64,000 nt of DNA from Lodderomyces elongisporus (taxonomy: Eukaryota > Ascomycota > Pichiomycetes > Serinales > Debaryomycetaceae): positions 2,356,001-2,420,000 of the forward strand of contig NC_083674.1 of NCBI RefSeq assembly GCF_030384665.1. The letters are read 5' to 3'. The position numbers and the translations under genes are program-made. Of this stretch, positions 1 to 61,423 are shown piece by piece. Numbering within the stretch: position 1 is the first letter of the stretch; each line of letters opens with the position of its first letter. A model generated the notes under the pieces. It was not told the DNA's origin and searched no databases. It worked only from the letters and a program-made list of their open reading frames with translations.

Positions 1-364
1 CAACCCAACCTGTGATAATATGATCCCGCTGTGCCTTGTTGATACCCCTAGTGCATATGCATCCTCCACATTTTTCGTTCCCCGTACAAGATCATACGAC
101 AAAGGCGCCATTTTGTCGCAGGATCTGCCAAGTTCAGAATAAATGTGTGAGTCGGCAGCTACACTAGTGCAATGTTGTGGTAGGCTATGGGAAACGGTAG
201 CAGAGGTCGGTGGGCTCCCCTGCTTTGGGATCATGGTTGGGTTTGTGATATAGTCATCCGTGAAGCAGCAACAGAGGTAACATCAGAAATAGCACCAGTG
301 ACAGTAACGTGCTTTTTTTTTGTCCGTCTGTTTTTGTATTTTTTTTTTTTTTTTTTTCCTTTTA

Positions 365-1774
365 TTACTTGGTTGAGACCAGCATTAGACTTTTGATCCT
401 CGCTTTTATGTTTTTTATGCAGCGAGTGAAGCTGGTAGTTGGGGGTAGTGTTTTGATTTTGAACTTTTCTAGATGTAGTTCCCCCTCGATAACCTCAATG
501 TGCTGATCTAAAGTCTTAATCAACCAAGCAGCGTATTCTTCTGGTGTTTTGACATTTGCTCCTCCAAACCTAAAAAACCTAAAAAACCTTCTAAACCCCC
601 TCTCCCTGGTGTATGTCCTGTGGTAGTCGACAATCCGCACTTGGATTCCTGGTCGACTACCCACTTTTCTCTCCACCCCAACTAGAAGCTTATAGCCTGT
701 TTTGTTTCTGGCTATAAGATGGGTCGTGTCCCTTTGCAATTTGTGAAGGATGTCCTCGCGTTCTTTGGTAAGTAAGGGGAAGCGGACATTGCCTGTTGGA
801 CAGCCCTGGTCAATGGGGTGGTATAATGGCCTCAGAAATGAGGACTTATGGACAACGGAGTTGGTGCAAAGTGTTGCGAAGGTGGGTCTGGGTTCGCCCA
901 TGTCACATGCGCGTTTGTTCCTGCGTGTCATGTAATTGTATGTGCGTGTGGTGTTTGTGTTTGTGTCTGTGTTTGTGTTTGTGTCTGTGTTTGTGTTTGT
1001 GTTTGTGTTTGTGTCTGTGTCTGTAAATGTGTATGTGTTTGAGGTATATGTGTTTTTCAGGCTTGTTTCTTGTGTGCCCAAGTAATATACCTCAGTTGCT
1101 TGGTGCTCGTATGCCGGACTTACTGCATAGATAGTTTCCTCCCCTCCAAAATTCATTTTCAAGAGTTGGAAGTGGGGAAGTATCAATGATGCCTCTTTGT
1201 AGTGGCTTCCCATTCTGGGAAGCTCTCTCCTGATGTCTTCGGAGTGTTCCTCTGAAATCTTGTAGATGAGAAATTTTCCATCTGTAGATTTGTAGGCGGT
1301 GCTGCCTATTTTTGTTATGGAGTCTTCCATGGACGCAAATGACTGTAAATAGGTGGATTCCAGGCATCCCCACAGCTTTCTTACTCTTTGAAACAGCTTT
1401 GCATGGTAGGACTCGATATTGGTTGTGTATTCTTGGTGCCTAAGAAAAACACTGAAAGTTTCGTCGTACTTCCAGGTTCTCCTGAGGCAGTCGGCAATAC
1501 TTTTGTGTATTCCCTCTACAAGAAGAAACCTTTCGGCCTCTTTCTTGGTAAGCTTTTTAACTGGTGTTTCCAGCAGTGGTGCACCTGAGGGTGATTTCCC
1601 AGGTGTTTGCGAAGGTTTGAATCCCTTCGCCAAAGTTGATTTGAGGTTTTGGAAAACCTGCTTGGTTGATTGGGGTACAGGTTCTCCGGGAAGTTGAAAC
1701 CGAACCTTGCGTTCGGCTGGTTTTTCCCCCTTTGACTTGGGGGAGGTGTTAAAAGCGTTTTTAAAAAATGACAT
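365..1774 (-). CDS. ORF A, copy 1: repeat-encoded protein of unknown function (469 aa)
   Basis: I do not recognise the family. The N-terminal ~75 residues are basic and probably disordered, with a KVRF motif at 23-26 (fits the PP1-docking RVxF pattern) and proline-directed sites SPKSK (11-15), TPGK (57-60) and TPVK (70-73); the last two fit the full Cdk consensus. Residues ~75-235 look folded (mixed helix/strand composition, many aromatics). A Thr/Asn/Asp dipeptide run at about 251-276 is encoded by a 6-bp repeat at about 951-1024. A basic stretch TRRNKRA (283-289) follows, then a second folded-looking region and an Arg/Phe-rich patch (390-403). There is no signal peptide or membrane segment. 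The ATG is followed by MSFFKNAF and lies ~173 bp downstream of a TATAAATA box. Seven CTG codons (residues 67, 68, 127, 134, 138, 239, 314) would be Ser under the CUG-Ser code. Intactness in all twelve copies argues for a real gene; function is open. Confidence 0.68.
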   Translation of the reverse strand: MSFFKNAFNTSPKSKGEKPAERKVRFQLPGEPVPQSTKQVFQNLKSTLAKGFKPSQTPGKSPSGAPLLETPVKKLTKKEAERFLLVEGIHKSIADCLRRTWKYDETFSVFLRHQEYTTNIESYHAKLFQRVRKLWGCLESTYLQSFASMEDSITKIGSTAYKSTDGKFLIYKISEEHSEDIRRELPRMGSHYKEASLILPHFQLLKMNFGGEETIYAVSPAYEHQATEVYYLGTQETSLKNTYTSNTYTFTDTDTNTNTNTNTDTNTNTDTNTNTTRTYNYMTRRNKRACDMGEPRPTFATLCTNSVVHKSSFLRPLYHPIDQGCPTGNVRFPLLTKEREDILHKLQRDTTHLIARNKTGYKLLVGVERKVGSRPGIQVRIVDYHRTYTRERGFRRFFRFFRFGGANVKTPEEYAAWLIKTLDQHIEVIEGELHLEKFKIKTLPPTTSFTRCIKNIKARIKSLMLVSTK

Positions 1775-1946
1775 TATTTAAGATTTAATTAAGTAAACTA
1801 ACTGGTAAAGTCTGACTCGTTTAAACTGTACTAAGTGAGACTTTGGTTGTGGGTTTACTTCTGGCGAAAGAAGAAGAAGAAAAAGGAAAAGAAGAAAAAG
1901 AAAAGGGCAAAAAAAGGTTTGAGGTCACAAGGATTTTGTTTGTGGA

Positions 1947-1954
1947 TATTTATA
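1947..1954 (-). promoter_or_regulatory. TATA box and leader of ORF A (unit 1; present in every unit)
   Basis: TATAAATA on the minus strand lies ~173 bp before the ORF A ATG. A strongly pyrimidine-rich leader (~1862-1920 on the minus strand), as seen in well-expressed yeast promoters, lies between them. An ACGCGT word (2126-2131, MluI-box-like) lies about 350 bp upstream of the ATG. The TATA, CT-rich leader and ACGCGT are also kept at matching distance in the inverted flanking copy (TATA at 42373-42380, ATG at 42553). The promoter role is inferred from position and motif only. Confidence 0.6.
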
Positions 1955-2145
1955 CTTCACCAAGTAGCCCTCTCGCCACGCCTTGTGGTTGGAGACTAAC
2001 AAGTAAATTGTGTTATGCCATATACATTTTGGTTGCAAAACCCGCGAGGAAGTGAGGGGAACAGAAGGGCGAGGAAATCCCTTCTGGTAGCTCAGCAGTG
2101 TGTGTGCAATTGTATGCGCTACCAAACGCGTCGTAACAAAAAACC

Positions 2146-2187
2146 AAATGGGTGCTGCCAAATGGGTGCTGCCAAATGGGTGCTGCC
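2146..2187. repeat. 14-bp minisatellite AAATGGGTGCTGCC (unit 1, 3 copies)
   Basis: AAATGGGTGCTGCC is repeated three times. The same site has 3 copies in units 1-5, 7, 11 and 12, 4 copies in unit 6 (from about 19345), and 2 copies in units 8, 9 and 10. A period that is not a multiple of three, varying freely, indicates this stretch is not coding. Confidence 0.9.
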
Positions 2188-2282
2188 AATAGTGTGTGGC
2201 TGTAGCAGAAAGTGGACAACCAGAGTGGATGAATTGTGTGTTTGGATGCATGTTGGCTCAACACAATCTACAACCTTATACA

Positions 2283-2790: not shown

Positions 2791-2925
2791 GAACGTTCAA
2801 TTTTGTAGGCTGAATGCGAAATAGAAGAATGGTTCAATTACAAATAGCAGAGTGTTTACATAAACAGAAAAGTGTGTTAATATTAGAAAAAAAAAGTGCA
2901 AAGATTAATAGCAGGAACAGCAACA

Positions 2926-3818: not shown

Positions 3819-5228
3819 TTACTTGGTTGAGACCAGCATTAGACTTTTGATCCTCGCTTTTATGTTTTTTATGCAGCGAGTGAAGCTGGTAGTTGGGGGT
3901 AGTGTTTTGATTTTGAACTTTTCTAGATGTAGTTCCCCCTCGATAACCTCAATGTGCTGATCTAAAGTCTTAATCAACCAAGCAGCGTATTCTTCTGGTG
4001 TTTTGACATTTGCTCCTCCAAACCTAAAAAACCTAAAAAACCTTCTAAACCCCCTCTCCCTGGTGTATGTCCTGTGGTAGTCGACAATCCGCACTTGGAT
4101 TCCTGGTCGACTACCCACTTTTCTCTCCACCCCAACTAGAAGCTTATAGCCTGTTTTGTTTCTGGCTATAAGATGGGTCGTGTCCCTTTGCAATTTGTGA
4201 AGGATGTCCTCGCGTTCTTTGGTAAGTAAGGGGAAGCGGACATTGCCTGTTGGACAGCCCTGGTCAATGGGGTGGTATAATGGCCTCAGAAATGAGGACT
4301 TATGGACAACGGAGTTGGTGCAAAGTGTTGCGAAGGTGGGTCTGGGTTCGCCCATGTCACATGCGCGTTTGTTCCTGCGTGTCATGTAATTGTATGTGCG
4401 TGTGGTGTTTGTGTTTGTGTCTGTGTTTGTGTTTGTGTCTGTGTTTGTGTTTGTGTTTGTGTTTGTGTCTGTGTCTGTAAATGTGTATGTGTTTGAGGTA
4501 TATGTGTTTTTCAGGCTTGTTTCTTGTGTGCCCAAGTAATATACCTCAGTTGCTTGGTGCTCGTATGCCGGACTTACTGCATAGATAGTTTCCTCCCCTC
4601 CAAAATTCATTTTCAAGAGTTGGAAGTGGGGAAGTATCAATGATGCCTCTTTGTAGTGGCTTCCCATTCTGGGAAGCTCTCTCCTGATGTCTTCGGAGTG
4701 TTCCTCTGAAATCTTGTAGATGAGAAATTTTCCATCTGTAGATTTGTAGGCGGTGCTGCCTATTTTTGTTATGGAGTCTTCCATGGACGCAAATGACTGT
4801 AAATAGGTGGATTCCAGGCATCCCCACAGCTTTCTTACTCTTTGAAACAGCTTTGCATGGTAGGACTCGATATTGGTTGTGTATTCTTGGTGCCTAAGAA
4901 AAACACTGAAAGTTTCGTCGTACTTCCAGGTTCTCCTGAGGCAGTCGGCAATACTTTTGTGTATTCCCTCTACAAGAAGAAACCTTTCGGCCTCTTTCTT
5001 GGTAAGCTTTTTAACTGGTGTTTCCAGCAGTGGTGCACCTGAGGGTGATTTCCCAGGTGTTTGCGAAGGTTTGAATCCCTTCGCCAAAGTTGATTTGAGG
5101 TTTTGGAAAACCTGCTTGGTTGATTGGGGTACAGGTTCTCCGGGAAGTTGAAACCGAACCTTGCGTTCGGCTGGTTTTTCCCCCTTTGACTTGGGGGAGG
5201 TGTTAAAAGCGTTTTTAAAAAATGACAT
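3819..5228 (-). CDS. ORF A, copy 2 (469 aa)
   Basis: Protein identical to copy 1, including the length of the Thr/Asn run. The unit is the shortest of the array (3382 bp) because its 24-bp minisatellite has lost 72 bp relative to units 1 and 3. Confidence 0.66.
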   Translation of the reverse strand: MSFFKNAFNTSPKSKGEKPAERKVRFQLPGEPVPQSTKQVFQNLKSTLAKGFKPSQTPGKSPSGAPLLETPVKKLTKKEAERFLLVEGIHKSIADCLRRTWKYDETFSVFLRHQEYTTNIESYHAKLFQRVRKLWGCLESTYLQSFASMEDSITKIGSTAYKSTDGKFLIYKISEEHSEDIRRELPRMGSHYKEASLILPHFQLLKMNFGGEETIYAVSPAYEHQATEVYYLGTQETSLKNTYTSNTYTFTDTDTNTNTNTNTDTNTNTDTNTNTTRTYNYMTRRNKRACDMGEPRPTFATLCTNSVVHKSSFLRPLYHPIDQGCPTGNVRFPLLTKEREDILHKLQRDTTHLIARNKTGYKLLVGVERKVGSRPGIQVRIVDYHRTYTRERGFRRFFRFFRFGGANVKTPEEYAAWLIKTLDQHIEVIEGELHLEKFKIKTLPPTTSFTRCIKNIKARIKSLMLVSTK

Positions 5229-7203: not shown

Positions 7204-8631
7204 TTACTTGGTTGAGACCAGCATTAGACTTTTGATCCTCGCTTTTATGTTTTTTATGCAGCGAGTGAAGCTGGTAGTTGGGGGTAGTGTTTTGATTTTG
7301 AACTTTTCTAGATGTAGTTCCCCCTCGATAACCTCAATGTGCTGATCTAAAGTCTTAATCAACCAAGCAGCGTATTCTTCTGGTGTTTTGACATTTGCTC
7401 CTCCAAACCTAAAAAACCTAAAAAACCTTCTAAACCCCCTCTCCCTGGTGTATGTCCTGTGGTAGTCGACAATCCGCACTTGGATTCCTGGTCGACTACC
7501 CACTTTTCTCTCCACCCCAACTAGAAGCTTATAGCCTGTTTTGTTTCTGGCTATAAGATGGGTCGTGTCCCTTTGCAATTTGTGAAGGATGTCCTCGCGT
7601 TCTTTGGTAAGTAAGGGGAAGCGGACATTGCCTGTTGGACAGCCCTGGTCAATGGGGTGGTATAATGGCCTCAGAAATGAGGACTTATGGACAACGGAGT
7701 TGGTGCAAAGTGTTGCGAAGGTGGGTCTGGGTTCGCCCATGTCACATGCGCGTTTGTTCCTGCGTGTCATGTAATTGTATGTGCGTGTGGTGTTTGTGTT
7801 TGTGTCTGTGTTTGTGTTTGTGTCTGTGTTTGTGTTTGTGTCTGTGTTTGTGTTTGTGTTTGTGTTTGTGTCTGTGTCTGTAAATGTGTATGTGTTTGAG
7901 GTATATGTGTTTTTCAGGCTTGTTTCTTGTGTGCCCAAGTAATATACCTCAGTTGCTTGGTGCTCGTATGCCGGACTTACTGCATAGATAGTTTCCTCCC
8001 CTCCAAAATTCATTTTCAAGAGTTGGAAGTGGGGAAGTATCAATGATGCCTCTTTGTAGTGGCTTCCCATTCTGGGAAGCTCTCTCCTGATGTCTTCGGA
8101 GTGTTCCTCTGAAATCTTGTAGATGAGAAATTTTCCATCTGTAGATTTGTAGGCGGTGCTGCCTATTTTTGTTATGGAGTCTTCCATGGACGCAAATGAC
8201 TGTAAATAGGTGGATTCCAGGCATCCCCACAGCTTTCTTACTCTTTGAAACAGCTTTGCATGGTAGGACTCGATATTGGTTGTGTATTCTTGGTGCCTAA
8301 GAAAAACACTGAAAGTTTCGTCGTACTTCCAGGTTCTCCTGAGGCAGTCGGCAATACTTTTGTGTATTCCCTCTACAAGAAGAAACCTTTCGGCCTCTTT
8401 CTTGGTAAGCTTTTTAACTGGTGTTTCCAGCAGTGGTGCACCTGAGGGTGATTTCCCAGGTGTTTGCGAAGGTTTGAATCCCTTCGCCAAAGTTGATTTG
8501 AGGTTTTGGAAAACCTGCTTGGTTGATTGGGGTACAGGTTCTCCGGGAAGTTGAAACCGAACCTTGCGTTCGGCTGGTTTTTCCCCCTTTGACTTGGGGG
8601 AGGTGTTAAAAGCGTTTTTAAAAAATGACAT
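7204..8631 (-). CDS. ORF A, copy 3 (475 aa)
   Basis: Same protein with a six-residue in-frame extension of the Thr/Asn/Asp run (one extra TDTNTN block). No other residue differs from copy 1. The unit has the 72-bp-longer minisatellite form of unit 1. Confidence 0.66.
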   Translation of the reverse strand: MSFFKNAFNTSPKSKGEKPAERKVRFQLPGEPVPQSTKQVFQNLKSTLAKGFKPSQTPGKSPSGAPLLETPVKKLTKKEAERFLLVEGIHKSIADCLRRTWKYDETFSVFLRHQEYTTNIESYHAKLFQRVRKLWGCLESTYLQSFASMEDSITKIGSTAYKSTDGKFLIYKISEEHSEDIRRELPRMGSHYKEASLILPHFQLLKMNFGGEETIYAVSPAYEHQATEVYYLGTQETSLKNTYTSNTYTFTDTDTNTNTNTNTDTNTNTDTNTNTDTNTNTTRTYNYMTRRNKRACDMGEPRPTFATLCTNSVVHKSSFLRPLYHPIDQGCPTGNVRFPLLTKEREDILHKLQRDTTHLIARNKTGYKLLVGVERKVGSRPGIQVRIVDYHRTYTRERGFRRFFRFFRFGGANVKTPEEYAAWLIKTLDQHIEVIEGELHLEKFKIKTLPPTTSFTRCIKNIKARIKSLMLVSTK

Positions 8632-10679: not shown

Positions 10680-12089
10680 TTACTTGGTTGAGACCAGCAT
10701 TAGACTTTTGATCCTCGCTTTTATGTTTTTTATGCAGCGAGTGAAGCTGGTAGTTGGGGGTAGTGTTTTGATTTTGAACTTTTCTAGATGTAGTTCCCCC
10801 TCGATAACCTCAATGTGCTGATCTAAAGTCTTAATCAACCAAGCAGCGTATTCTTCTGGTGTTTTGACATTTGCTCCTCCAAACCTAAAAAACCTAAAAA
10901 ACCTTCTAAACCCCCTCTCCCTGGTGTATGTCCTGTGGTAGTCGACAATCCGCACTTGGATTCCTGGTCGACTACCCACTTTTCTCTCCACCCCAACTAG
11001 AAGCTTATAGCCTGTTTTGTTTCTGGCTATAAGATGGGTCGTGTCCCTTTGCAATTTGTGAAGGATGTCCTCGCGTTCTTTGGTAAGTAAGGGGAAGCGG
11101 ACATTGCCTGTTGGACAGCCCTGGTCAATGGGGTGGTATAATGGCCTCAGAAATGAGGACTTATGGACAACGGAGTTGGTGCAAAGTGTTGCGAAGGTGG
11201 GTCTGGGTTCGCCCATGTCACATGCGCGTTTGTTCCTGCGTGTCATGTAATTGTATGTGCGTGTGGTGTTTGTGTTTGTGTCTGTGTTTGTGTTTGTGTC
11301 TGTGTTTGTGTTTGTGTTTGTGTTTGTGTCTGTGTCTGTAAATGTGTATGTGTTTGAGGTATATGTGTTTTTCAGGCTTGTTTCTTGTGTGCCCAAGTAA
11401 TATACCTCAGTTGCTTGGTGCTCGTATGCCGGACTTACTGCATAGATAGTTTCCTCCCCTCCAAAATTCATTTTCAAGAGTTGGAAGTGGGGAAGTATCA
11501 ATGATGCCTCTTTGTAGTGGCTTCCCATTCTGGGAAGCTCTCTCCTGATGTCTTCGGAGTGTTCCTCTGAAATCTTGTAGATGAGAAATTTTCCATCTGT
11601 AGATTTGTAGGCGGTGCTGCCTATTTTTGTTATGGAGTCTTCCATGGACGCAAATGACTGTAAATAGGTGGATTCCAGGCATCCCCACAGCTTTCTTACT
11701 CTTTGAAACAGCTTTGCATGGTAGGACTCGATATTGGTTGTGTATTCTTGGTGCCTAAGAAAAACACTGAAAGTTTCGTCGTACTTCCAGGTTCTCCTGA
11801 GGCAGTCGGCAATACTTTTGTGTATTCCCTCTACAAGAAGAAACCTTTCGGCCTCTTTCTTGGTAAGCTTTTTAACTGGTGTTTCCAGCAGTGGTGCACC
11901 TGAGGGTGATTTCCCAGGTGTTTGCGAAGGTTTGAATCCCTTCGCCAAAGTTGATTTGAGGTTTTGGAAAACCTGCTTGGTTGATTGGGGTACAGGTTCT
12001 CCGGGAAGTTGAAACCGAACCTTGCGTTCGGCTGGTTTTTCCCCCTTTGACTTGGGGGAGGTGTTAAAAGCGTTTTTAAAAAATGACAT
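10680..12089 (-). CDS. ORF A, copy 4 (469 aa)
   Basis: Protein equal to copies 1 and 2. Just downstream on the minus strand (about 10530) this unit has one extra C in a C tract, shared with units 11, 12, the partial unit 13 and the decayed copy near 44600. The change is outside ORF A. Confidence 0.66.
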   Translation of the reverse strand: MSFFKNAFNTSPKSKGEKPAERKVRFQLPGEPVPQSTKQVFQNLKSTLAKGFKPSQTPGKSPSGAPLLETPVKKLTKKEAERFLLVEGIHKSIADCLRRTWKYDETFSVFLRHQEYTTNIESYHAKLFQRVRKLWGCLESTYLQSFASMEDSITKIGSTAYKSTDGKFLIYKISEEHSEDIRRELPRMGSHYKEASLILPHFQLLKMNFGGEETIYAVSPAYEHQATEVYYLGTQETSLKNTYTSNTYTFTDTDTNTNTNTNTDTNTNTDTNTNTTRTYNYMTRRNKRACDMGEPRPTFATLCTNSVVHKSSFLRPLYHPIDQGCPTGNVRFPLLTKEREDILHKLQRDTTHLIARNKTGYKLLVGVERKVGSRPGIQVRIVDYHRTYTRERGFRRFFRFFRFGGANVKTPEEYAAWLIKTLDQHIEVIEGELHLEKFKIKTLPPTTSFTRCIKNIKARIKSLMLVSTK

Positions 12090-14064: not shown

Positions 14065-15474
14065 TTACTTGGTTGAGACCAGCATTAGACTTTTGATCCT
14101 CGCTTTTATGTTTTTTATGCAGCGAGTGAAGCTGGTAGTTGGGGGTAGTGTTTTGATTTTGAACTTTTCTAGATGTAGTTCCCCCTCGATAACCTCAATG
14201 TGCTGATCTAAAGTCTTAATCAACCAAGCAGCGTATTCTTCTGGTGTTTTGACATTTGCTCCTCCAAACCTAAAAAACCTAAAAAACCTTCTAAACCCCC
14301 TCTCCCTGGTGTATGTCCTGTGGTAGTCGACAATCCGCACTTGGATTCCTGGTCGACTACCCACTTTTCTCTCCACCCCAACTAGAAGCTTATAGCCTGT
14401 TTTGTTTCTGGCTATAAGATGGGTCGTGTCCCTTTGCAATTTGTGAAGGATGTCCTCGCGTTCTTTGGTAAGTAAGGGGAAGCGGACATTGCCTGTTGGA
14501 CAGCCCTGGTCAATGGGGTGGTATAATGGCCTCAGAAATGAGGACTTATGGACAACGGAGTTGGTGCAAAGTGTTGCGAAGGTGGGTCTGGGTTCGCCCA
14601 TGTCACATGCGCGTTTGTTCCTGCGTGTCATGTAATTGTATGTGCGTGTGGTGTTTGTGTTTGTGTCTGTGTTTGTGTTTGTGTCTGTGTTTGTGTTTGT
14701 GTTTGTGTTTGTGTCTGTGTCTGTAAATGTGTATGTGTTTGAGGTATATGTGTTTTTCAGGCTTGTTTCTTGTGTGCCCAAGTAATATACCTCAGTTGCT
14801 TGGTGCTCGTATGCCGGACTTACTGCATAGATAGTTTCCTCCCCTCCAAAATTCATTTTCAAGAGTTGGAAGTGGGGAAGTATCAATGATGCCTCTTTGT
14901 AGTGGCTTCCCATTCTGGGAAGCTCTCTCCTGATGTCTTCGGAGTGTTCCTCTGAAATCTTGTAGATGAGAAATTTTCCATCTGTAGATTTGTAGGCGGT
15001 GCTGCCTATTTTTGTTATGGAGTCTTCCATGGACGCAAATGACTGTAAATAGGTGGATTCCAGGCATCCCCACAGCTTTCTTACTCTTTGAAACAGCTTT
15101 GCATGGTAGGACTCGATATTGGTTGTGTATTCTTGGTGCCTAAGAAAAACACTGAAAGTTTCGTCGTACTTCCAGGTTCTCCTGAGGCAGTCGGCAATAC
15201 TTTTGTGTATTCCCTCTACAAGAAGAAACCTTTCGGCCTCTTTCTTGGTAAGCTTTTTAACTGGTGTTTCCAGCAGTGGTGCACCTGAGGGTGATTTCCC
15301 AGGTGTTTGCGAAGGTTTGAATCCCTTCGCCAAAGTTGATTTGAGGTTTTGGAAAACCTGCTTGGTTGATTGGGGTACAGGTTCTCCGGGAAGTTGAAAC
15401 CGAACCTTGCGTTCGGCTGGTTTTTCCCCCTTTGACTTGGGGGAGGTGTTAAAAGCGTTTTTAAAAAATGACAT
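14065..15474 (-). CDS. ORF A, copy 5 (469 aa)
   Basis: Protein equal to copy 1. This is the first unit (from the left) with the longest 24-bp minisatellite form, which all units to its right then share. Confidence 0.66.
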   Translation of the reverse strand: MSFFKNAFNTSPKSKGEKPAERKVRFQLPGEPVPQSTKQVFQNLKSTLAKGFKPSQTPGKSPSGAPLLETPVKKLTKKEAERFLLVEGIHKSIADCLRRTWKYDETFSVFLRHQEYTTNIESYHAKLFQRVRKLWGCLESTYLQSFASMEDSITKIGSTAYKSTDGKFLIYKISEEHSEDIRRELPRMGSHYKEASLILPHFQLLKMNFGGEETIYAVSPAYEHQATEVYYLGTQETSLKNTYTSNTYTFTDTDTNTNTNTNTDTNTNTDTNTNTTRTYNYMTRRNKRACDMGEPRPTFATLCTNSVVHKSSFLRPLYHPIDQGCPTGNVRFPLLTKEREDILHKLQRDTTHLIARNKTGYKLLVGVERKVGSRPGIQVRIVDYHRTYTRERGFRRFFRFFRFGGANVKTPEEYAAWLIKTLDQHIEVIEGELHLEKFKIKTLPPTTSFTRCIKNIKARIKSLMLVSTK

Positions 15475-17545
15475 TATTTAAGATTTAATTAAGTAAACTA
15501 ACTGGTAAAGTCTGACTCGTTTAAACTGTACTAAGTGAGACTTTGGTTGTGGGTTTACTTCTGGCGAAAGAAGAAGAAGAAAAAGGAAAAGAAGAAAAAG
15601 AAAAGGGCAAAAAAAGGTTTGAGGTCACAAGGATTTTGTTTGTGGATATTTATACTTCACCAAGTAGCCCTCTCGCCACGCCTTGTGGTTGGAGACTAAC
15701 AAGTAAATTGTGTTATGCCATATACATTTTGGTTGCAAAACCCGCGAGGAAGTGAGGGGAACAGAAGGGCGAGGAAATCCCTTCTGGTAGCTCAGCAGTG
15801 TGTGTGCAATTGTATGCGCTACCAAACGCGTCGTAACAAAAAACCAAATGGGTGCTGCCAAATGGGTGCTGCCAAATGGGTGCTGCCAATAGTGTGTGGC
15901 TGTAGCAGAAAGTGGACAACCAGAGTGGATGAATTGTGTGTTTGGATGCATGTTGGCTCAACACAATCTACAACCTTATACATCCTGCAATGCATTCTAT
16001 CTCCACAAACAATTCTCGACGGATTGCCGTCAAGCTTGCAACGAGTCGAGAATTGTTTGTGTGTGTTGATTATTCCCCTGAGTTTGGTGCGAATTTACAG
16101 GGAAACATTTTTCTACTGAAGTTTGAGGAAAACTGTGGGCTCAGCTACTCCCTCCCTCTTTCCCCGCCCCATACATTTACATCATATAGGCCGGATCCCA
16201 GGTTGAGCCCTAGGTTGAACCCCAGGCTGGATCCTATGTCAGTTCTACAAAAATGCGCCACTTCCAGAACATAGGGAGAATCTGGCTCCTATCACTGCTG
16301 CTGCCCACTGTAGTGTTTTTTTGTAAAGTTTTTTGTAAAGTACACACCCACCCGCGCGCGTCCATCTTACGTGTATATTACGTGTATCTGAGGTTAACTC
16401 GTTCACAGCAGCTCACGTGCGCGTATACATACACATACTCCAACCCGAGATACTCTAGTTTGCAATGACAGCGATTGCGCGAAATATACAGAACGTTCAA
16501 TTTTGTAGGCTGAATGCGAAATAGAAGAATGGTTCAATTACAAATAGCAGAGTGTTTACATAAACAGAAAAGTGTGTTAATATTAGAAAAAAAAAGTGCA
16601 AAGATTAATAGCAGGAACAGCAACACCACCAGACATAACATCAGCAACACCATCAGCAACACCATCAGCAACACCACCAGACATAACATCAGTAACACCA
16701 CCAGACATAACACCAGCAACACAACCAGACATAACACCAGCAACACAACCAGACATAACATCAGTAACACCACCAGACATAACACCAGCAACACAACCAG
16801 ACATAACATCAGCAACACAACCAGACATAACATCAGCAACACAACCAGCAACACCATCAGCAACACAACCAGCAACACCATCAGCAACGCAACCAGTGAC
16901 ACAACCAGGAAAAAACACCAGGAATAACACCAAAAACATTTCTGACAAGTTTGAATGGCATAGTTTGAGTTTGGTCGACGTCGGATAGCACACACTATAA
17001 TAAATATGTTGGATATAATAAATATGATAAATATGATAAATATTAGTGGTGGTAGTAGTAGTGGTGCTATTCCAACACGAGCAAACAATGATTTTGATGC
17101 AACATTAACAAACCCCGGAAGCAGATTCCACAAGCTTTTCTTCTGCACCATCTGAAACAACTTGCACGGTGACTTACACAACCCAACCTGTGATAATATG
17201 ATCCCGCTGTGCCTTGTTGATACCCCTAGTGCATATGCATCCTCCACATTTTTCGTTCCCCGTACAAGATCATACGACAAAGGCGCCATTTTGTCGCAGG
17301 ATCTGCCAAGTTCAGAATAAATGTGTGAGTCGGCAGCTACACTAGTGCAATGTTGTGGTAGGCTATGGGAAACGGTAGCAGAGGTCGGTGGGCTCCCCTG
17401 CTTTGGGATCATGGTTGGGTTTGTGATATAGTCGTCCGTGAAGCAGCAACAGAGGTAACATCAGAAATAGCACCAGTGACAGTAACGTGCTTTTTTTTTG
17501 TCCGTCTGTTTTTGTATTTTTTTTTTTTTTTTTTTTTTCCTTTTA

Positions 17546-24522: not shown

Positions 24523-24553
<31 letters not shown>

Positions 24554-24560
24554 CCTTTTA

Positions 24561-25976
24561 TTACTTGGTTGAGACCAGCATTAGACTTTTGATCCTCGCT
24601 TTTATGTTTTTTATGCAGCGAGTGAAGCTGGTAGTTGGGGGTAGTGTTTTGATTTTGAACTTTTCTAGATGTAGTTCCCCCTCGATAACCTCAATGTGCT
24701 GATCTAAAGTCTTAATCAACCAAGCAGCGTATTCTTCTGGTGTTTTGACATTTGCTCCTCCAAACCTAAAAAACCTAAAAAACCTTCTAAACCCCCTCTC
24801 CCTGGTGTATGTCCTGTGGTAGTCGACAATCCGCACTTGGATTCCTGGTCGACTACCCACTTTTCTCTCTACCCCAACTAGAAGCTTATAGCCTGTTTTG
24901 TTTCTGGCTATAAGATGGGTCGTGTCCCTTTGCAATTTGTGAAGGATGTCCTCGCGTTCTTTGGTAAGTAAGGGGAAGCGGACATTGCCTGTTGGACAGC
25001 CCTGGTCAATGGGGTGGTATAATGGCCTCAGAAATGAGGACTTATGGACAACGGAGTTGGTGCAAAGTGTTGCGAAGGTGGGTCTGGGTTCGCCCATGTC
25101 ACATGCGCGTTTGTTCCTGCGTGTCATGTAATTGTATGTGCGTGTGGTGTTTGTGTTTGTGTCTGTGTTTGTGTTTGTGTTTGTGTTTGTGTTTGTGTTT
25201 GTGTTTGTGTTTGTGTCTGTGTCTGTAAATGTGTATGTGTTTGAGGTATATGTGTTTTTCAGGCTTGTTTCTTGTGTGCCCAAGTAATATACCTCAGTTG
25301 CTTGGTGCTCGTATGCCGGACTTACTGCATAGATAGTTTCCTCCCCTCCAAAATTCATTTTCAAGAGTTGGAAGTGGGGAAGTATCAATGATGCCTCTTT
25401 GTAGTGGCTTCCCATTCTGGGAAGCTCTCTCCTGATGTCTTCGGAGTGTTCCTCTGAAATCTTGTAGATGAGAAATTTTCCATCTGTAGATTTGTAGGCG
25501 GTGCTGCCTATTTTTGTTATGGAGTCTTCCATGGACGCAAATGACTGTAAATAGGTGGATTCCAGGCATCCCCACAGCTTTCTTACTCTTTGAAACAGCT
25601 TTGCATGGTAGGACTCGATATTGGTTGTGTATTCTTGGTGCCTAAGAAAAACACTGAAAGTTTCGTCGTACTTCCAGGTTCTCCTGAGGCAGTCGGCAAT
25701 ACTTTTGTGTATTCCCTCTACAAGAAGAAACCTTTCGGCCTCTTTCTTGGTAAGCTTTTTAACTGGTGTTTCCAGCAGTGGTGCACCTGAGGGTGATTTC
25801 CCAGGTGTTTGCGAAGGTTTGAATCCCTTCGCCAAAGTTGATTTGAGGTTTTGGAAAACCTGCTTGGTTGATTGGGGTACAGGTTCTCCGGGAAGTTGAA
25901 ACCGAACCTTGCGTTCGGCTGGTTTTTCCCCCTTTGACTTGGGGGAGGTGTTAAAAGCGTTTTTAAAAAATGACAT
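24561..25976 (-). CDS. ORF A, copy 8 (471 aa)
   Basis: The Thr/Asn run is longer by two residues than in copy 1 and has fewer Asp interruptions. A base difference at 24870 (T instead of C) does not change the protein and is shared only with copy 10. The unit has two 14-bp repeats and a small variant block at about 26586-26620 shared with units 9 and 10. Confidence 0.66.
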   Translation of the reverse strand: MSFFKNAFNTSPKSKGEKPAERKVRFQLPGEPVPQSTKQVFQNLKSTLAKGFKPSQTPGKSPSGAPLLETPVKKLTKKEAERFLLVEGIHKSIADCLRRTWKYDETFSVFLRHQEYTTNIESYHAKLFQRVRKLWGCLESTYLQSFASMEDSITKIGSTAYKSTDGKFLIYKISEEHSEDIRRELPRMGSHYKEASLILPHFQLLKMNFGGEETIYAVSPAYEHQATEVYYLGTQETSLKNTYTSNTYTFTDTDTNTNTNTNTNTNTNTNTDTNTNTTRTYNYMTRRNKRACDMGEPRPTFATLCTNSVVHKSSFLRPLYHPIDQGCPTGNVRFPLLTKEREDILHKLQRDTTHLIARNKTGYKLLVGVERKVGSRPGIQVRIVDYHRTYTRERGFRRFFRFFRFGGANVKTPEEYAAWLIKTLDQHIEVIEGELHLEKFKIKTLPPTTSFTRCIKNIKARIKSLMLVSTK

Positions 25977-28033: not shown

Positions 28034-29461
28034 TTACTTGGTTGAGACCAGCATTAGACTTTTGATCCTCGCTTTTATGTTTTTTATGCAGCGAGTGAAG
28101 CTGGTAGTTGGGGGTAGTGTTTTGATTTTGAACTTTTCTAGATGTAGTTCCCCCTCGATAACCTCAATGTGCTGATCTAAAGTCTTAATCAACCAAGCAG
28201 CGTATTCTTCTGGTGTTTTGACATTTGCTCCTCCAAACCTAAAAAACCTAAAAAACCTTCTAAACCCCCTCTCCCTGGTGTATGTCCTGTGGTAGTCGAC
28301 AATCCGCACTTGGATTCCTGGTCGACTACCCACTTTTCTCTCCACCCCAACTAGAAGCTTATAGCCTGTTTTGTTTCTGGCTATAAGATGGGTCGTGTCC
28401 CTTTGCAATTTGTGAAGGATGTCCTCGCGTTCTTTGGTAAGTAAGGGGAAGCGGACATTGCCTGTTGGACAGCCCTGGTCAATGGGGTGGTATAATGGCC
28501 TCAGAAATGAGGACTTATGGACAACGGAGTTGGTGCAAAGTGTTGCGAAGGTGGGTCTGGGTTCGCCCATGTCACATGCGCGTTTGTTCCTGCGTGTCAT
28601 GTAATTGTATGTGCGTGTGGTGTTTGTGTTTGTGTCTGTGTTTGTGTTTGTGTCTGTGTTTGTGTTTGTGTCTGTGTTTGTGTTTGTGTTTGTGTTTGTG
28701 TCTGTGTCTGTAAATGTGTATGTGTTTGAGGTATATGTGTTTTTCAGGCTTGTTTCTTGTGTGCCCAAGTAATATACCTCAGTTGCTTGGTGCTCGTATG
28801 CCGGACTTACTGCATAGATAGTTTCCTCCCCTCCAAAATTCATTTTCAAGAGTTGGAAGTGGGGAAGTATCAATGATGCCTCTTTGTAGTGGCTTCCCAT
28901 TCTGGGAAGCTCTCTCCTGATGTCTTCGGAGTGTTCCTCTGAAATCTTGTAGATGAGAAATTTTCCATCTGTAGATTTGTAGGCGGTGCTGCCTATTTTT
29001 GTTATGGAGTCTTCCATGGACGCAAATGACTGTAAATAGGTGGATTCCAGGCATCCCCACAGCTTTCTTACTCTTTGAAACAGCTTTGCATGGTAGGACT
29101 CGATATTGGTTGTGTATTCTTGGTGCCTAAGAAAAACACTGAAAGTTTCGTCGTACTTCCAGGTTCTCCTGAGGCAGTCGGCAATACTTTTGTGTATTCC
29201 CTCTACAAGAAGAAACCTTTCGGCCTCTTTCTTGGTAAGCTTTTTAACTGGTGTTTCCAGCAGTGGTGCACCTGAGGGTGATTTCCCAGGTGTTTGCGAA
29301 GGTTTGAATCCCTTCGCCAAAGTTGATTTGAGGTTTTGGAAAACCTGCTTGGTTGATTGGGGTACAGGTTCTCCGGGAAGTTGAAACCGAACCTTGCGTT
29401 CGGCTGGTTTTTCCCCCTTTGACTTGGGGGAGGTGTTAAAAGCGTTTTTAAAAAATGACAT
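28034..29461 (-). CDS. ORF A, copy 9 (475 aa)
   Basis: The coding part is the copy 6/7 type, while the upstream half of the same unit is the unit 8/10 type (two 14-bp repeats and the variant block near 30071). The unit is therefore a mosaic of two variants, as expected from gene conversion or unequal exchange. Confidence 0.66.
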   Translation of the reverse strand: MSFFKNAFNTSPKSKGEKPAERKVRFQLPGEPVPQSTKQVFQNLKSTLAKGFKPSQTPGKSPSGAPLLETPVKKLTKKEAERFLLVEGIHKSIADCLRRTWKYDETFSVFLRHQEYTTNIESYHAKLFQRVRKLWGCLESTYLQSFASMEDSITKIGSTAYKSTDGKFLIYKISEEHSEDIRRELPRMGSHYKEASLILPHFQLLKMNFGGEETIYAVSPAYEHQATEVYYLGTQETSLKNTYTSNTYTFTDTDTNTNTNTNTDTNTNTDTNTNTDTNTNTTRTYNYMTRRNKRACDMGEPRPTFATLCTNSVVHKSSFLRPLYHPIDQGCPTGNVRFPLLTKEREDILHKLQRDTTHLIARNKTGYKLLVGVERKVGSRPGIQVRIVDYHRTYTRERGFRRFFRFFRFGGANVKTPEEYAAWLIKTLDQHIEVIEGELHLEKFKIKTLPPTTSFTRCIKNIKARIKSLMLVSTK

Positions 29462-31483: not shown

Positions 31484-31515
<32 letters not shown>

Positions 31516-31522
31516 CCTTTTA

Positions 31523-32938
31523 TTACTTGGTTGAGACCAGCATTAGACTTTTGATCCTCGCTTTTATGTTTTTTATGCAGCGAGTGAAGCTGGTAGTTGG
31601 GGGTAGTGTTTTGATTTTGAACTTTTCTAGATGTAGTTCCCCCTCGATAACCTCAATGTGCTGATCTAAAGTCTTAATCAACCAAGCAGCGTATTCTTCT
31701 GGTGTTTTGACATTTGCTCCTCCAAACCTAAAAAACCTAAAAAACCTTCTAAACCCCCTCTCCCTGGTGTATGTCCTGTGGTAGTCGACAATCCGCACTT
31801 GGATTCCTGGTCGACTACCCACTTTTCTCTCTACCCCAACTAGAAGCTTATAGCCTGTTTTGTTTCTGGCTATAAGATGGGTCGTGTCCCTTTGCAATTT
31901 GTGAAGGATGTCCTCGCGTTCTTTGGTAAGTAAGGGGAAGCGGACATTGCCTGTTGGACAGCCCTGGTCAATGGGGTGGTATAATGGCCTCAGAAATGAG
32001 GACTTATGGACAACGGAGTTGGTGCAAAGTGTTGCGAAGGTGGGTCTGGGTTCGCCCATGTCACATGCGCGTTTGTTCCTGCGTGTCATGTAATTGTATG
32101 TGCGTGTGGTGTTTGTGTTTGTGTCTGTGTTTGTGTTTGTGTTTGTGTTTGTGTTTGTGTTTGTGTTTGTGTTTGTGTCTGTGTCTGTAAATGTGTATGT
32201 GTTTGAGGTATATGTGTTTTTCAGGCTTGTTTCTTGTGTGCCCAAGTAATATACCTCAGTTGCTTGGTGCTCGTATGCCGGACTTACTGCATAGATAGTT
32301 TCCTCCCCTCCAAAATTCATTTTCAAGAGTTGGAAGTGGGGAAGTATCAATGATGCCTCTTTGTAGTGGCTTCCCATTCTGGGAAGCTCTCTCCTGATGT
32401 CTTCGGAGTGTTCCTCTGAAATCTTGTAGATGAGAAATTTTCCATCTGTAGATTTGTAGGCGGTGCTGCCTATTTTTGTTATGGAGTCTTCCATGGACGC
32501 AAATGACTGTAAATAGGTGGATTCCAGGCATCCCCACAGCTTTCTTACTCTTTGAAACAGCTTTGCATGGTAGGACTCGATATTGGTTGTGTATTCTTGG
32601 TGCCTAAGAAAAACACTGAAAGTTTCGTCGTACTTCCAGGTTCTCCTGAGGCAGTCGGCAATACTTTTGTGTATTCCCTCTACAAGAAGAAACCTTTCGG
32701 CCTCTTTCTTGGTAAGCTTTTTAACTGGTGTTTCCAGCAGTGGTGCACCTGAGGGTGATTTCCCAGGTGTTTGCGAAGGTTTGAATCCCTTCGCCAAAGT
32801 TGATTTGAGGTTTTGGAAAACCTGCTTGGTTGATTGGGGTACAGGTTCTCCGGGAAGTTGAAACCGAACCTTGCGTTCGGCTGGTTTTTCCCCCTTTGAC
32901 TTGGGGGAGGTGTTAAAAGCGTTTTTAAAAAATGACAT
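31523..32938 (-). CDS. ORF A, copy 10 (471 aa)
   Basis: Protein identical to copy 8, with the same silent T at 31832. The leader has GGGTTTTG instead of GGATTTTG near 33096, a change shared with units 11, 12 and the inverted flanking copy. Confidence 0.66.
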   Translation of the reverse strand: MSFFKNAFNTSPKSKGEKPAERKVRFQLPGEPVPQSTKQVFQNLKSTLAKGFKPSQTPGKSPSGAPLLETPVKKLTKKEAERFLLVEGIHKSIADCLRRTWKYDETFSVFLRHQEYTTNIESYHAKLFQRVRKLWGCLESTYLQSFASMEDSITKIGSTAYKSTDGKFLIYKISEEHSEDIRRELPRMGSHYKEASLILPHFQLLKMNFGGEETIYAVSPAYEHQATEVYYLGTQETSLKNTYTSNTYTFTDTDTNTNTNTNTNTNTNTNTDTNTNTTRTYNYMTRRNKRACDMGEPRPTFATLCTNSVVHKSSFLRPLYHPIDQGCPTGNVRFPLLTKEREDILHKLQRDTTHLIARNKTGYKLLVGVERKVGSRPGIQVRIVDYHRTYTRERGFRRFFRFFRFGGANVKTPEEYAAWLIKTLDQHIEVIEGELHLEKFKIKTLPPTTSFTRCIKNIKARIKSLMLVSTK

Positions 32939-34997: not shown

Positions 34998-36395
34998 TTA
35001 CTTGGTTGAGACCAGCATTAGACTTTTGATCCTCGCTTTTATGTTTTTTATGCAGCGAGTGAAGCTGGTAGTTGGGGGTAGTGTTTTGATTTTGAACTTT
35101 TCTAGATGTAGTTCCCCCTCGATAACCTCAATGTGCTGATCTAAAGTCTTAATCAACCAAGCAGCGTATTCTTCTGGTGTTTTGACATTTGCTCCTCCAA
35201 ACCTAAAAAACCTAAAAAACCTTCTAAACCCCCTCTCCCTGGTGTATGTCCTGTGGTAGTCGACAATCCGCACTTGGATTCCTGGTCGACTACCCACTTT
35301 TCTCTCCACCCCAACTAGAAGCTTATAGCCTGTTTTGTTTCTGGCTATAAGATGGGTCGTGTCCCTTTGCAATTTGTGAAGGATGTCCTCGCGTTCTTTG
35401 GTAAGTAAGGGGAAGCGGACATTGCCTGTTGGACAGCCCTGGTCAATGGGGTGGTATAATGGCCTCAGAAATGAGGACTTATGGACAACGGAGTTGGTGC
35501 AAAGTGTTGCGAAGGTGGGTCTGGGTTCGCCCATGTCACATGCGCGTTTGTTCCTGCGTGTCATGTAATTGTATGTGCGTGTGGTGTTTGTGTTTGTGTC
35601 TGTGTTTGTGTTTGTGTTTGTGTTTGTGTTTGTGTCTGTGTCTGTAAATGTGTATGTGTTTGAGGTATATGTGTTTTTCAGGCTTGTTTCTTGTGTGCCC
35701 AAGTAATATACCTCAGTTGCTTGGTGGTCGTATGCCGGACTTACTGCATAGATAGTTTCCTCCCCTCCAAAATTCATTTTCAAGAGTTGGAAGTGGGGAA
35801 GTATCAATGATGCCTCTTTGTAGTGGCTTCCCATTCTGGGAAGCTCTCTCCTGATGTCTTCGGAGTGTTCCTCTGAAATCTTGTAGATGAGAAATTTTCC
35901 ATCTGTAGATTTGTAGGCGGTGCTGCCTATTTTTGTTATGGAGTCTTCCATGGACGCAAATGACTGTAAATAGGTGGATTCCAGGCATCCCCACAGCTTT
36001 CTTACTCTTTGAAACAGCTTTGCATGGTAGGACTCGATATTGGTTGTGTATTCTTGGTGCCTAAGAAAAACACTGAAAGTTTCGTCGTACTTCCAGGTTC
36101 TCCTGAGGCAGTCGGCAATACTTTTGTGTATTCCCTCTACAAGAAGAAACCTTTCGGCCTCTTTCTTGGTAAGCTTTTTAACTGGTGTTTCCAGCAGTGG
36201 TGCACCTGAGGGTGATTTCCCAGGTGTTTGCGAAGGTTTGAATCCCTTCGCCAAAGTTGATTTGAGGTTTTGGAAAACCTGCTTGGTTGATTGGGGTACA
36301 GGTTCTCCGGGAAGTTGAAACCGAACCTTGCGTTCGGCTGGTTTTTCCCCCTTTGACTTGGGGGAGGTGTTAAAAGCGTTTTTAAAAAATGACAT
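34998..36395 (-). CDS. ORF A, copy 11 (465 aa)
   Basis: Shortest Thr/Asn run. The only amino acid substitution among the intact copies occurs here and in copy 12: residue 223 is Asp (AYDHQ) instead of Glu. The unit returns to three 14-bp repeats. Confidence 0.66.
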   Translation of the reverse strand: MSFFKNAFNTSPKSKGEKPAERKVRFQLPGEPVPQSTKQVFQNLKSTLAKGFKPSQTPGKSPSGAPLLETPVKKLTKKEAERFLLVEGIHKSIADCLRRTWKYDETFSVFLRHQEYTTNIESYHAKLFQRVRKLWGCLESTYLQSFASMEDSITKIGSTAYKSTDGKFLIYKISEEHSEDIRRELPRMGSHYKEASLILPHFQLLKMNFGGEETIYAVSPAYDHQATEVYYLGTQETSLKNTYTSNTYTFTDTDTNTNTNTNTNTDTNTNTTRTYNYMTRRNKRACDMGEPRPTFATLCTNSVVHKSSFLRPLYHPIDQGCPTGNVRFPLLTKEREDILHKLQRDTTHLIARNKTGYKLLVGVERKVGSRPGIQVRIVDYHRTYTRERGFRRFFRFFRFGGANVKTPEEYAAWLIKTLDQHIEVIEGELHLEKFKIKTLPPTTSFTRCIKNIKARIKSLMLVSTK

Positions 36396-38432: not shown

Positions 38433-38465
<33 letters not shown>

Positions 38466-38472
38466 CCTTTTA

Positions 38473-39870
38473 TTACTTGGTTGAGACCAGCATTAGACTT
38501 TTGATCCTCGCTTTTATGTTTTTTATGCAGCGAGTGAAGCTGGTAGTTGGGGGTAGTGTTTTGATTTTGAACTTTTCTAGATGTAGTTCCCCCTCGATAA
38601 CCTCAATGTGCTGATCTAAAGTCTTAATCAACCAAGCAGCGTATTCTTCTGGTGTTTTGACATTTGCTCCTCCAAACCTAAAAAACCTAAAAAACCTTCT
38701 AAACCCCCTCTCCCTGGTGTATGTCCTGTGGTAGTCGACAATCCGCACTTGGATTCCTGGTCGACTACCCACTTTTCTCTCCACCCCAACTAGAAGCTTA
38801 TAGCCTGTTTTGTTTCTGGCTATAAGATGGGTCGTGTCCCTTTGCAATTTGTGAAGGATGTCCTCGCGTTCTTTGGTAAGTAAGGGGAAGCGGACATTGC
38901 CTGTTGGACAGCCCTGGTCAATGGGGTGGTATAATGGCCTCAGAAATGAGGACTTATGGACAACGGAGTTGGTGCAAAGTGTTGCGAAGGTGGGTCTGGG
39001 TTCGCCCATGTCACATGCGCGTTTGTTCCTGCGTGTCATGTAATTGTATGTGCGTGTGGTGTTTGTGTTTGTGTCTGTGTTTGTGTTTGTGTTTGTGTTT
39101 GTGTTTGTGTCTGTGTCTGTAAATGTGTATGTGTTTGAGGTATATGTGTTTTTCAGGCTTGTTTCTTGTGTGCCCAAGTAATATACCTCAGTTGCTTGGT
39201 GGTCGTATGCCGGACTTACTGCATAGATAGTTTCCTCCCCTCCAAAATTCATTTTCAAGAGTTGGAAGTGGGGAAGTATCAATGATGCCTCTTTGTAGTG
39301 GCTTCCCATTCTGGGAAGCTCTCTCCTGATGTCTTCGGAGTGTTCCTCTGAAATCTTGTAGATGAGAAATTTTCCATCTGTAGATTTGTAGGCGGTGCTG
39401 CCTATTTTTGTTATGGAGTCTTCCATGGACGCAAATGACTGTAAATAGGTGGATTCCAGGCATCCCCACAGCTTTCTTACTCTTTGAAACAGCTTTGCAT
39501 GGTAGGACTCGATATTGGTTGTGTATTCTTGGTGCCTAAGAAAAACACTGAAAGTTTCGTCGTACTTCCAGGTTCTCCTGAGGCAGTCGGCAATACTTTT
39601 GTGTATTCCCTCTACAAGAAGAAACCTTTCGGCCTCTTTCTTGGTAAGCTTTTTAACTGGTGTTTCCAGCAGTGGTGCACCTGAGGGTGATTTCCCAGGT
39701 GTTTGCGAAGGTTTGAATCCCTTCGCCAAAGTTGATTTGAGGTTTTGGAAAACCTGCTTGGTTGATTGGGGTACAGGTTCTCCGGGAAGTTGAAACCGAA
39801 CCTTGCGTTCGGCTGGTTTTTCCCCCTTTGACTTGGGGGAGGTGTTAAAAGCGTTTTTAAAAAATGACAT
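38473..39870 (-). CDS. ORF A, copy 12 (465 aa), last intact copy
   Basis: Protein identical to copy 11, including Asp223. This is the last intact ORF A before the array edge. The far end of its unit (41575-41700) begins to show isolated substitutions, consistent with weaker homogenisation near the edge. Confidence 0.66.
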   Translation of the reverse strand: MSFFKNAFNTSPKSKGEKPAERKVRFQLPGEPVPQSTKQVFQNLKSTLAKGFKPSQTPGKSPSGAPLLETPVKKLTKKEAERFLLVEGIHKSIADCLRRTWKYDETFSVFLRHQEYTTNIESYHAKLFQRVRKLWGCLESTYLQSFASMEDSITKIGSTAYKSTDGKFLIYKISEEHSEDIRRELPRMGSHYKEASLILPHFQLLKMNFGGEETIYAVSPAYDHQATEVYYLGTQETSLKNTYTSNTYTFTDTDTNTNTNTNTNTDTNTNTTRTYNYMTRRNKRACDMGEPRPTFATLCTNSVVHKSSFLRPLYHPIDQGCPTGNVRFPLLTKEREDILHKLQRDTTHLIARNKTGYKLLVGVERKVGSRPGIQVRIVDYHRTYTRERGFRRFFRFFRFGGANVKTPEEYAAWLIKTLDQHIEVIEGELHLEKFKIKTLPPTTSFTRCIKNIKARIKSLMLVSTK

Positions 39871-41849
39871 TATTTAAGATTTAATTAAGTAAACTAACTG
39901 GTAAAGTCTGACTCGTTTAAACTGTACTAAGTGAGACTTTGGTTGTGGGTTTACTTCTGGCGAAAGAAGAAGAAGAAAAAGGAAAAGAAGAAAAAGAAAA
40001 GGGCAAAAAAAGGTTTGAGGTCACAAGGGTTTTGTTTGTGGATATTTATACTTCACCAAGTAGCCCTCTCGCCACGCCTTGTGGTTGGAGACTAACAAGT
40101 AAATTGTGTTATGCCATATACATTTTGGTTGCAAAACCCGCGAGGAAGTGAGGGGAACAGAAGGGCGAGGAAATCCCTTCTGGTAGCTCAGCAGTGTGTG
40201 TGCAATTGTATGCGCTACCAAACGCGTCGTAACAAAAAACCAAATGGGTGCTGCCAAATGGGTGCTGCCAAATGGGTGCTGCCAATAGTGTGTGGCTGTA
40301 GCAGAAAGTGGACAACCAGAGTGGATGAATTGTGTGTTTGGATGCATGTTGGCTCAACACAATCTACAACCTTATACATCCTGCAATGCATTCTATCTCC
40401 ACAAACAATTCTCGACGGATTGCCGTCAAGCTTGCAACGAGTCGAGAATTGTTTGTGTGTGTTGATTATTCCCCTGAGTTTGGTGCGAATTTACAGGGAA
40501 ACATTTTTCTACTGAAGTTTGAGGAAAACTGTGGGCTCAGCTACTCCCTCCCTCTTTCCCCGCCCCATACATTTACATCATATAGGCCGGATCCCAGGTT
40601 GAGCCCTAGGTTGAACCCCAGGCTGGATCCTATGCCAGTTCTACAAAAATGCGCCACTTCCAGAACATAGGGAGAATCTGGCTCCTATCACTGCTGCTGC
40701 CCACTGTAGTGTTTTTTTGTAAAGTTTTTTGTAAAGTACACACCCACCCGCGCGCGTCCATCTTACGTGTATATTACGTGTATCTGAGGTTAACTCGTTC
40801 ACAGCAGCTCACGTGCGCGTATACATACACATACTCCAACCCGAGATACTCTAGTTTGCAATGACAGCGATTGCGCGAAATATACAGAACGTTCAATTTT
40901 GTAGGCTGAATGCGAAATAGAAGAATGGTTCAATTACAAATAGCAGAGTGTTTACATAAACAGAAAAGTGTGTTAATATTAGAAAAAAAAAGTGCAAAGA
41001 TTAATAGCAGGAACAGCAACACCACCAGACATAACATCAGCAACACCATCAGCAACACCATCAGCAACACCACCAGACATAACATCAGTAACACCACCAG
41101 ACATAACACCAGCAACACAACCAGACATAACACCAGCAACACAACCAGACATAACATCAGTAACACCACCAGACATAACACCAGCAACACAACCAGACAT
41201 AACATCAGCAACACAACCAGACATAACATCAGCAACACAACCAGCAACACCATCAGCAACACAACCAGCAACACCATCAGCAACGCAACCAGTGACACAA
41301 CCAGGAAAAAACACCAGGAATAACACCAAAAACATTTCTGACAAGTTTGAATGGCATAGTTTGAGTTTGGTCGACGTCGGATAGCACACACTATAATAAA
41401 TATGTTGGATATAATAAATATGATAAATATGATAAATATTAGTGGTGGTAGTAGTAGTGGTGCTATTCCAACACGAGCAAACAATGATTTTGATGCAACA
41501 TTAACAAACCCCGGAAGCAGATTCCACAAGCTTTTCTTCTGCACCATCTGAAACAACTTGCACGGTGACTTACACAACCCAACCTGTGATAATATGATCC
41601 CGCTGTGCCTTGCTGATACCCCTAGTGCATATGCATCCTCCACATTTTTCGTCCCCCGTACAAGATCATACGACAAAGGCGCCATTTTGTCGCAGGATCT
41701 GCCAAGTTCAGAATAAATGTGTGAGTCGGCAGCTACACTAGTGCAATGTTGTGGTAGGCTATGGAAAACGGTAGCAGAGGTCGGTGGGCTCCCCCTGCTT
41801 TGGGATCATGGTTGGGTTTGTGATATAGTCGTCCGTGAAGCTGCAACAT

Positions 41850-51897: not shown

Positions 51898-51937
<40 letters not shown>

Positions 51938-60173: not shown

Positions 60174-60213
<40 letters not shown>

Positions 60214-61363: not shown

Positions 61364-61392
61364 AAGTAAATCCTCGCATATATATATGTATG

Positions 61393-61423
<31 letters not shown>

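Follow-up and report, generated by a model that had tools for sequence, protein, structure and literature searches.

Tandem arrays of PIP-kinase-like genes in shared flanking blocks on seven of the eight chromosomes of Lodderomyces elongisporus

What is a tandem array of protein-coding units, more than 41 kb long, doing in a compact yeast genome? The question is raised by a stretch of 64,000 nucleotides, here called the window, which corresponds to C2:2356001-2420000 of Lodderomyces elongisporus NRRL YB-4239 (genome of 16,086,460 bp on eight contigs; C2, 2,781,521 bp). Arrays of this kind make up about 3% of the genome, and a literature search that covered part of the assembly paper (PMC10586162) found no published description of them. 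We consider, with moderate confidence, that the array is one of at least eight many-fold amplified, PIP-kinase-derived and probably dead paralogues, flanked on the 5' and 3' sides by shared blocks and subject to local homogenisation and to flank exchange between chromosomes; on C2, C5 and C6 the arrays would be centromere-adjacent, with a role like that of the major repeat sequence (MRS) of Candida albicans, and the genes would produce an abundant non-catalytic protein.

The array reported in a preliminary description of the window is real. Self-BLAST and TRF place head-to-tail copies from base 1 to base 41848, with unit lengths of 3385-3513 bp (n = 11 measured inside the window), and the twelve full units claimed there were recovered as 12 complete minus-strand copies of ORF A, each an intact frame of 465-475 codons (Table 1). 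The differences in unit size come, as proposed, from internal repeats of 6, 14 and 24 bp. The promoter-like sequence ascribed to each unit takes the form of a 22-bp TATA-containing motif, present in all 12 window genes at 181 bp before the ATG and in all 11 genes checked in other arrays at 172-219 bp (23 of 23 in total). Decayed copies flank the array, and in addition to the inverted one described before there is one in direct orientation. Leftward, the array runs on beyond the window; its left border, which had been out of view, lies at about C2:2303507 in the assembly, for a total length of about 94 kb.

Table 1. Features of the window (window coordinates) and copies of the 42-bp marker in the genome (chromosome coordinates; counts are among the matches listed)
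Feature	Position	Strand	Remarks
Right part of 94-kb C2 tandem array	1..41848	-	12 complete genes; self-BLAST, TRF, ORFs
ORF A copy 1	365..1774	-	469 aa; P0001, PIP-kinase-like
ORF A copy 2	3819..5228	-	469 aa
ORF A copy 3	7204..8631	-	475 aa
ORF A copy 4	10680..12089	-	469 aa
ORF A copy 5	14065..15474	-	469 aa; reference unit
'prom' block	15475..16218	-	5' flank block, common to C2, C3, C4, C5, C6 and C8 arrays
TATA-containing motif	15634..15655	-	GTATAAATATCCACAAACAAAA; 181 bp upstream of ATG
15-bp perfect inverted repeat	16006..16059	.	24-base loop, flipped between arrays
24-bp tandem repeat	16618..16896	.	one source of unit-size variation
'up' block	17041..17476	-	near-invariant; ~70 bp behind stop codon of neighbouring gene; contains 42-bp genome-wide marker
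ORF A copy 6	17546..18973	-	475 aa
ORF A copy 7	21059..22486	-	475 aa
ORF A copy 8	24561..25976	-	471 aa
ORF A copy 9	28034..29461	-	475 aa
ORF A copy 10	31523..32938	-	471 aa
ORF A copy 11	34998..36395	-	465 aa
ORF A copy 12	38473..39870	-	465 aa; last complete gene
Decayed partial copy, inverted	42059..43765	+	pieces 42059-42994 and 43456-43765, 95-99% identical to units
Decayed partial copy, array orientation	44515..45861	-	pieces 94-99% identical
C2 + array	C2:2184-2296 kb	+	at least 30 marker copies
C2 window array	C2:2304-2398 kb	-	at least 27 marker copies
C3 array	C3:550-617 kb	-	at least 15 marker copies
C4 array	C4:757-788 kb	-	at least 10 marker copies
C5 array	C5:1299-1340 kb	-	at least 12 marker copies
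C6 array	C6:774-818 kb	-	at least 12 marker copies
C7 array	C7:488-559 kb	-	at least 16 marker copies
C8 array	C8:899-934 kb	+	at least 8 marker copies
Marker copies outside arrays	C3:661 and 665 kb	+	
Marker copy outside arrays	C6:913 kb (C6:912907)	-	
Marker copy outside arrays	C8:698 kb (C8:698518)	+	

ORF B and the other overlapping ORFs are rejected as genes, because their frame holds 19-27 CTG codons and is broken in other arrays. Ribosomal DNA, also considered in the preliminary description, is ruled out: at the gathering threshold Rfam finds no rRNA gene and matches only a tRNA in the window. Matches to known RNA families are all below threshold (E 0.41 or worse), and the 'up' block, folded as RNA, reaches only modest stability (z -2.46, equalled by 1 of 100 shuffles). 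The tRNA gene (window 48441-48546, minus strand; Rfam, 45 bits) was missed by ARAGORN with the bacterial setting, and its length suggests an intron. Right of the array, window 49113-63440 contains ordinary unique genes, encoding a ZZ-finger protein, an acid phosphatase, a RasGEF with SH3, Vps26 and an UNC-93/MFS transporter.

A problem arises with any count of near-identical units: such units are difficult to assemble, and tandem copies may be inflated or misplaced. The copy number used here is that of a PacBio HiFi/hifiasm assembly (GCA_030384665.1), in which HiFi reads longer than 20 kb cover several units, the karyotype agreed, and more than 0.6 Mb was gained over the Sanger assembly (PMC10586162). 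The units can be told apart by VNTR lengths and substitutions. Moreover, a public NRRL YB-4239 protein entry lies on a contig of 2,574,663 bp, against 2,781,521 bp for C2; the excess is about that of the two C2 arrays, and reads as if the older assembly had collapsed both. An assembly artefact is extremely improbable.

Comparison of the unit with its own genome, as suggested in the preliminary description, shows related arrays on six other chromosomes. When up to 3 mismatches are allowed, a 42-bp marker taken from the block that follows the gene has 145 sites genome-wide (43 forward and 102 reverse) and its reversed-pattern control has 0; a second marker, of 30 bp, also has 145 sites, again 43 and 102. 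Among the matches listed, 134 of the 145 copies were placed and eleven are unplaced, and 130 of the 134 form eight arrays on seven of the eight chromosomes, C1 having no marker copy among those placed. L. elongisporus has at least eight such tandem gene arrays, whose first-to-last marker spans total about 492 kb for the placed copies (~0.49 Mb, 3.1% of the genome). Left of the C3 array, at C3:541-546 kb, ORFs (L045 36-1343 and 2795-5085) resemble by eye a retroelement integrase and reverse transcriptase.

Within the window's C2 array the units are nearly identical. Sixteen complete units of this array, read end to end, differ in pairs by 0-17 substitutions. The mean is 5.4 between neighbours (16 pairs) and climbs to about 11-12 at a separation of 12-14 units; a 17th interval, extending beyond the end of the array into the decayed copy, is counted in these means and inflates the larger distances. 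The twelve coding sequences of the window are of four kinds. Between array types, coding nucleotide identity is 44-64%, with dS of 0.9-3.2 and dN of 0.41-0.88 (NG86 values, which are rough near saturation), and the coding sequences of the two C2 arrays share only 44%.

The flanking DNA is conserved and mosaic, while the coding parts have diverged. In BLAST pieces of at least about 200 bases, the 'up', 'prom' and 'mid' blocks are respectively 92-99.6%, 87-95% and 89-99.7% identical between arrays. Segment distances are 0.00-0.22 on the 5' side, except for one C4 flank that leaves its array (0.47-0.50), and 0.00-0.11 in the middle 3' segment; the short spacer that immediately follows the stop codon is unconserved (0.14-0.57). 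In the first flank segment, C2 is nearest to C5 (0.03) and C2b (0.04), with C4 at 0.08, a contrast partly due to the inverted loop, which adds mismatches; in another segment C2 is nearest to C4 (0.03), with C5 at 0.19. The 15-bp inverted repeat around this loop has a DNA fold of z -3.13 (1 of 200 shuffles as good). Read on the coding strand, the loop lies one way in C2 (19 of 19 found), C2b (1 of 1) and C5 (2 of 2), and the other way in C4 (3 of 3) and C6 (2 of 2), and a strict pattern finds no inverted repeat in C3 and C8. A loop flip at the inverted repeat appears to be the simplest reading.

Near identity within the window's array, together with mosaic flanks against divergent coding sequences, points to local unequal exchange and to exchange between chromosomes. 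Under the explanation that we favour, unequal sister-chromatid exchange and gene conversion would keep the units alike locally; exchange between arrays on different chromosomes would keep the flanking blocks alike and also carry units to new chromosomes; and the divergent coding parts would escape conversion between arrays.

The encoded proteins appear, by profile comparison, to be diverged relatives of PIP kinases. Against Pfam PIP5K (PF01504, cut-off 27 bits), P0001 scores 24.6 bits, under the cut-off, and the near-identical P0002 29.6, over it; the C5, C2b and P0005 types have weak PIP5K matches (0.0016, 0.0027 and 0.00026), and the C6-, C4a-, C3- and C8-type proteins have none. When four types are combined into a profile, PIP4K2B is matched at 6e-14 and PIP kinases form 21 of the 22 listed PDB chains; hhalign gives the array profile a probability of 90.8 against the genome's own MSS4-like kinase. 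The top PDB matches of P0001 alone, however, are oligopeptide-binding proteins (E 0.0029), which counts against a PIP-kinase reading. Three protein searches, which scored only candidates sharing short exact words (one was limited to 8000 candidates and probably crowded by the low-complexity insert), matched no Candida protein and no other relative outside L. elongisporus, only proteins of this species and ENA entries of the same types.

The genome also encodes true MSS4- and FAB1-like kinases, and the MSS4-like one was used to align the active sites of types C2, C5, C6 and C2b and of the single-copy relative P0015. At the ATP-binding lysine of FIIKT, all five have another residue (Y, Y, Y, H and S, in this order). 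The catalytic aspartate of MDYSLL is lost in four of five (G, G, N, G) and retained as D in P0015. None of the five has an intact DLKGS motif, C5 retaining DLKG. Given the lost lysine, aspartate and DLKGS, the array proteins are probably pseudokinases, catalytically dead, and the L. elongisporus arrays would provide a large family of probable pseudo-PIP-kinases. Since the C5 and C6 proteins have a hydrophobic stretch at the end, membrane binding is possible. The product of the genes may be an abundant PIP-kinase-like protein, non-catalytic and perhaps attached to membranes.

The C3 and C8 array ORFs (L011-L015) are longer. Their first ~25 residues are the same as in other types; a tandem 39-aa repeat and a long polyQ follow, with lengths that differ between units, and then a stop, behind which lies a PIP-kinase-like stretch (64% to P0015).

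These ORFs bear on two other explanations of the arrays. One is that the protein is what is amplified: the arrays would increase the dosage of a gene family that shares its promoters, or its diversity, and centromere proximity would be incidental. Full-length genes have no internal stop in 27 of 27 listed for the C2 array, 9 of 9 for C4 and 12 of 12 for C5, the TATA motif is kept in every gene checked, and omega is below 1: pooling the close pairs C2-C4, C6-C4a and C3-C8 gives 0.51 (binomial p 0.004), or 0.58 without C3-C8 (p 0.037), from which we infer weak purifying selection on the array genes. However, intactness within an array represents few independent events, the 3' flank block differs less from one array type to another than the genes do, and the ORFs amplified in the C3 and C8 arrays lack a PIP-kinase match. 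We find this explanation somewhat doubtful. The other is that the arrays are satellite-like DNA, selfish or neutral, which ectopic recombination has spread and in which the genes are passengers. The deficit of nonsynonymous changes and the maintained promoter motif and reading frames speak against it, whereas marker copies on seven chromosomes, including the single ones on C6 and C8, and the remnant behind the stop of the C3/C8-type ORFs speak for it; we judge it quite improbable.

The position of the arrays is the remaining part of the question. The preliminary description allowed that the window array could be subtelomeric; this is ruled out by its internal position (2.30-2.40 Mb of a 2.78-Mb contig) and by the absence from the window of the published telomere motif (PMC10586162). 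Its left border abuts a centromere-like stretch with a second array beyond it, and is therefore not subtelomeric. This stretch, C2:2298001-2303507, is AT-rich, has no ORF of 100 aa and no match elsewhere in the genome, and lies between the + array (last marker at 2296.2 kb) and the oppositely oriented - array of the window. Its strand composition switches from -0.148 on the left to 0.171 on the right over 1.5 kb (score 0.148). Similar switches occur at C5:1289-1292.5 kb (0.136) and C6:766-771 kb (0.164), each 5-8 kb off its array in the direction in which the genes point. Beside C3 (0.088), C7 (0.029) and C8 (0.040), the stretches read have no switch of this strength, and none was seen beside C4 (borders -0.053 and -0.101; C4:750-757 kb was read, unscored); window 46-64 kb scores 0.059. 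Strand skew has served to predict centromeres in L. elongisporus, with long repetitive DNA beside two predicted ones (PMC2924309). A study of an older assembly accepts six of those predictions and judges the centromeres to lack inverted repeats and to be mostly unique in sequence (PMC7263194).

From the skew we infer that the arrays lie beside putative centromeres on C2, C5 and C6, where they would serve as large repeats at which chromosomes recombine, in the manner of the C. albicans MRS. The genome also carries an intact Piwi-domain (Argonaute-like) gene at C5:706539-707504 (E 4.6e-72), and RNA interference may thus act on the arrays. A bolder and, in our view, unlikely extension is that this budding yeast has a pericentromeric satellite that codes for protein: most centromeres would be bordered by arrays of a common unit. 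The near-invariant noncoding block of this unit and its inverted repeat, able to form a cruciform, would be homogenised between chromosomes and would serve or bias segregation, with the pseudokinases as part of the same centromere-linked system. If the arrays are pericentromeric, L. elongisporus offers another, independent system in which to study the function of MRS-like repeats, and a natural test case for how noncoding DNA is kept alike across chromosomes while the intervening genes diverge.

Among known systems, PIP kinases (PF01504; MSS4, PIP4K2) resemble the array proteins over the N-lobe up to the MDYSLLVG region, where the array profile matches; unlike them, the array proteins lack the ATP-binding lysine, an intact DLKGS and, in four of five types, the catalytic aspartate, have a low-complexity insert and occur as arrays. 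Inverted pericentromeric repeats around a unique core are known from S. pombe (dg/dh) and from the centromeres of C. tropicalis. On C2, similarly, two opposed arrays face a unique, AT-rich, ORF-free stretch, but these arrays measure 94 and ~112 kb, their units are protein-coding and their coding sequences have diverged to 44% nucleotide identity, and on C5 and C6 only one side was seen to have an array.

Membership in the MRS is rejected on its sequence markers: the RPS marker COM29 (up to 3 mismatches) and SfiI sites, another MRS marker, each have 0 occurrences in the window. Homology, which the preliminary description had not claimed, finds no support in these markers or in the PIP-kinase-like ORF. 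Unlike in the MRS (RPS, RB2 with FGR6 genes, HOK), every unit bears the gene, and at least three arrays appear to adjoin a centromere-like skew locus. The likeness in layout noted at the outset nevertheless extends to the whole genome. The MRS is found on seven of eight C. albicans chromosomes (PMC6896093) and combines multi-kb tandem units, unit-number variation, a repeat-linked gene family and a site of inter-chromosome exchange (PMC6896093, PMC3737206). Most L. elongisporus chromosomes likewise bear a large tandem repeat at a single site (seven of the eight contigs, with eight arrays), with multi-kb units, variation in their number, a repeat-linked gene family and putative exchange between chromosomes; by analogy, the MRS is the best counterpart of the arrays in layout.
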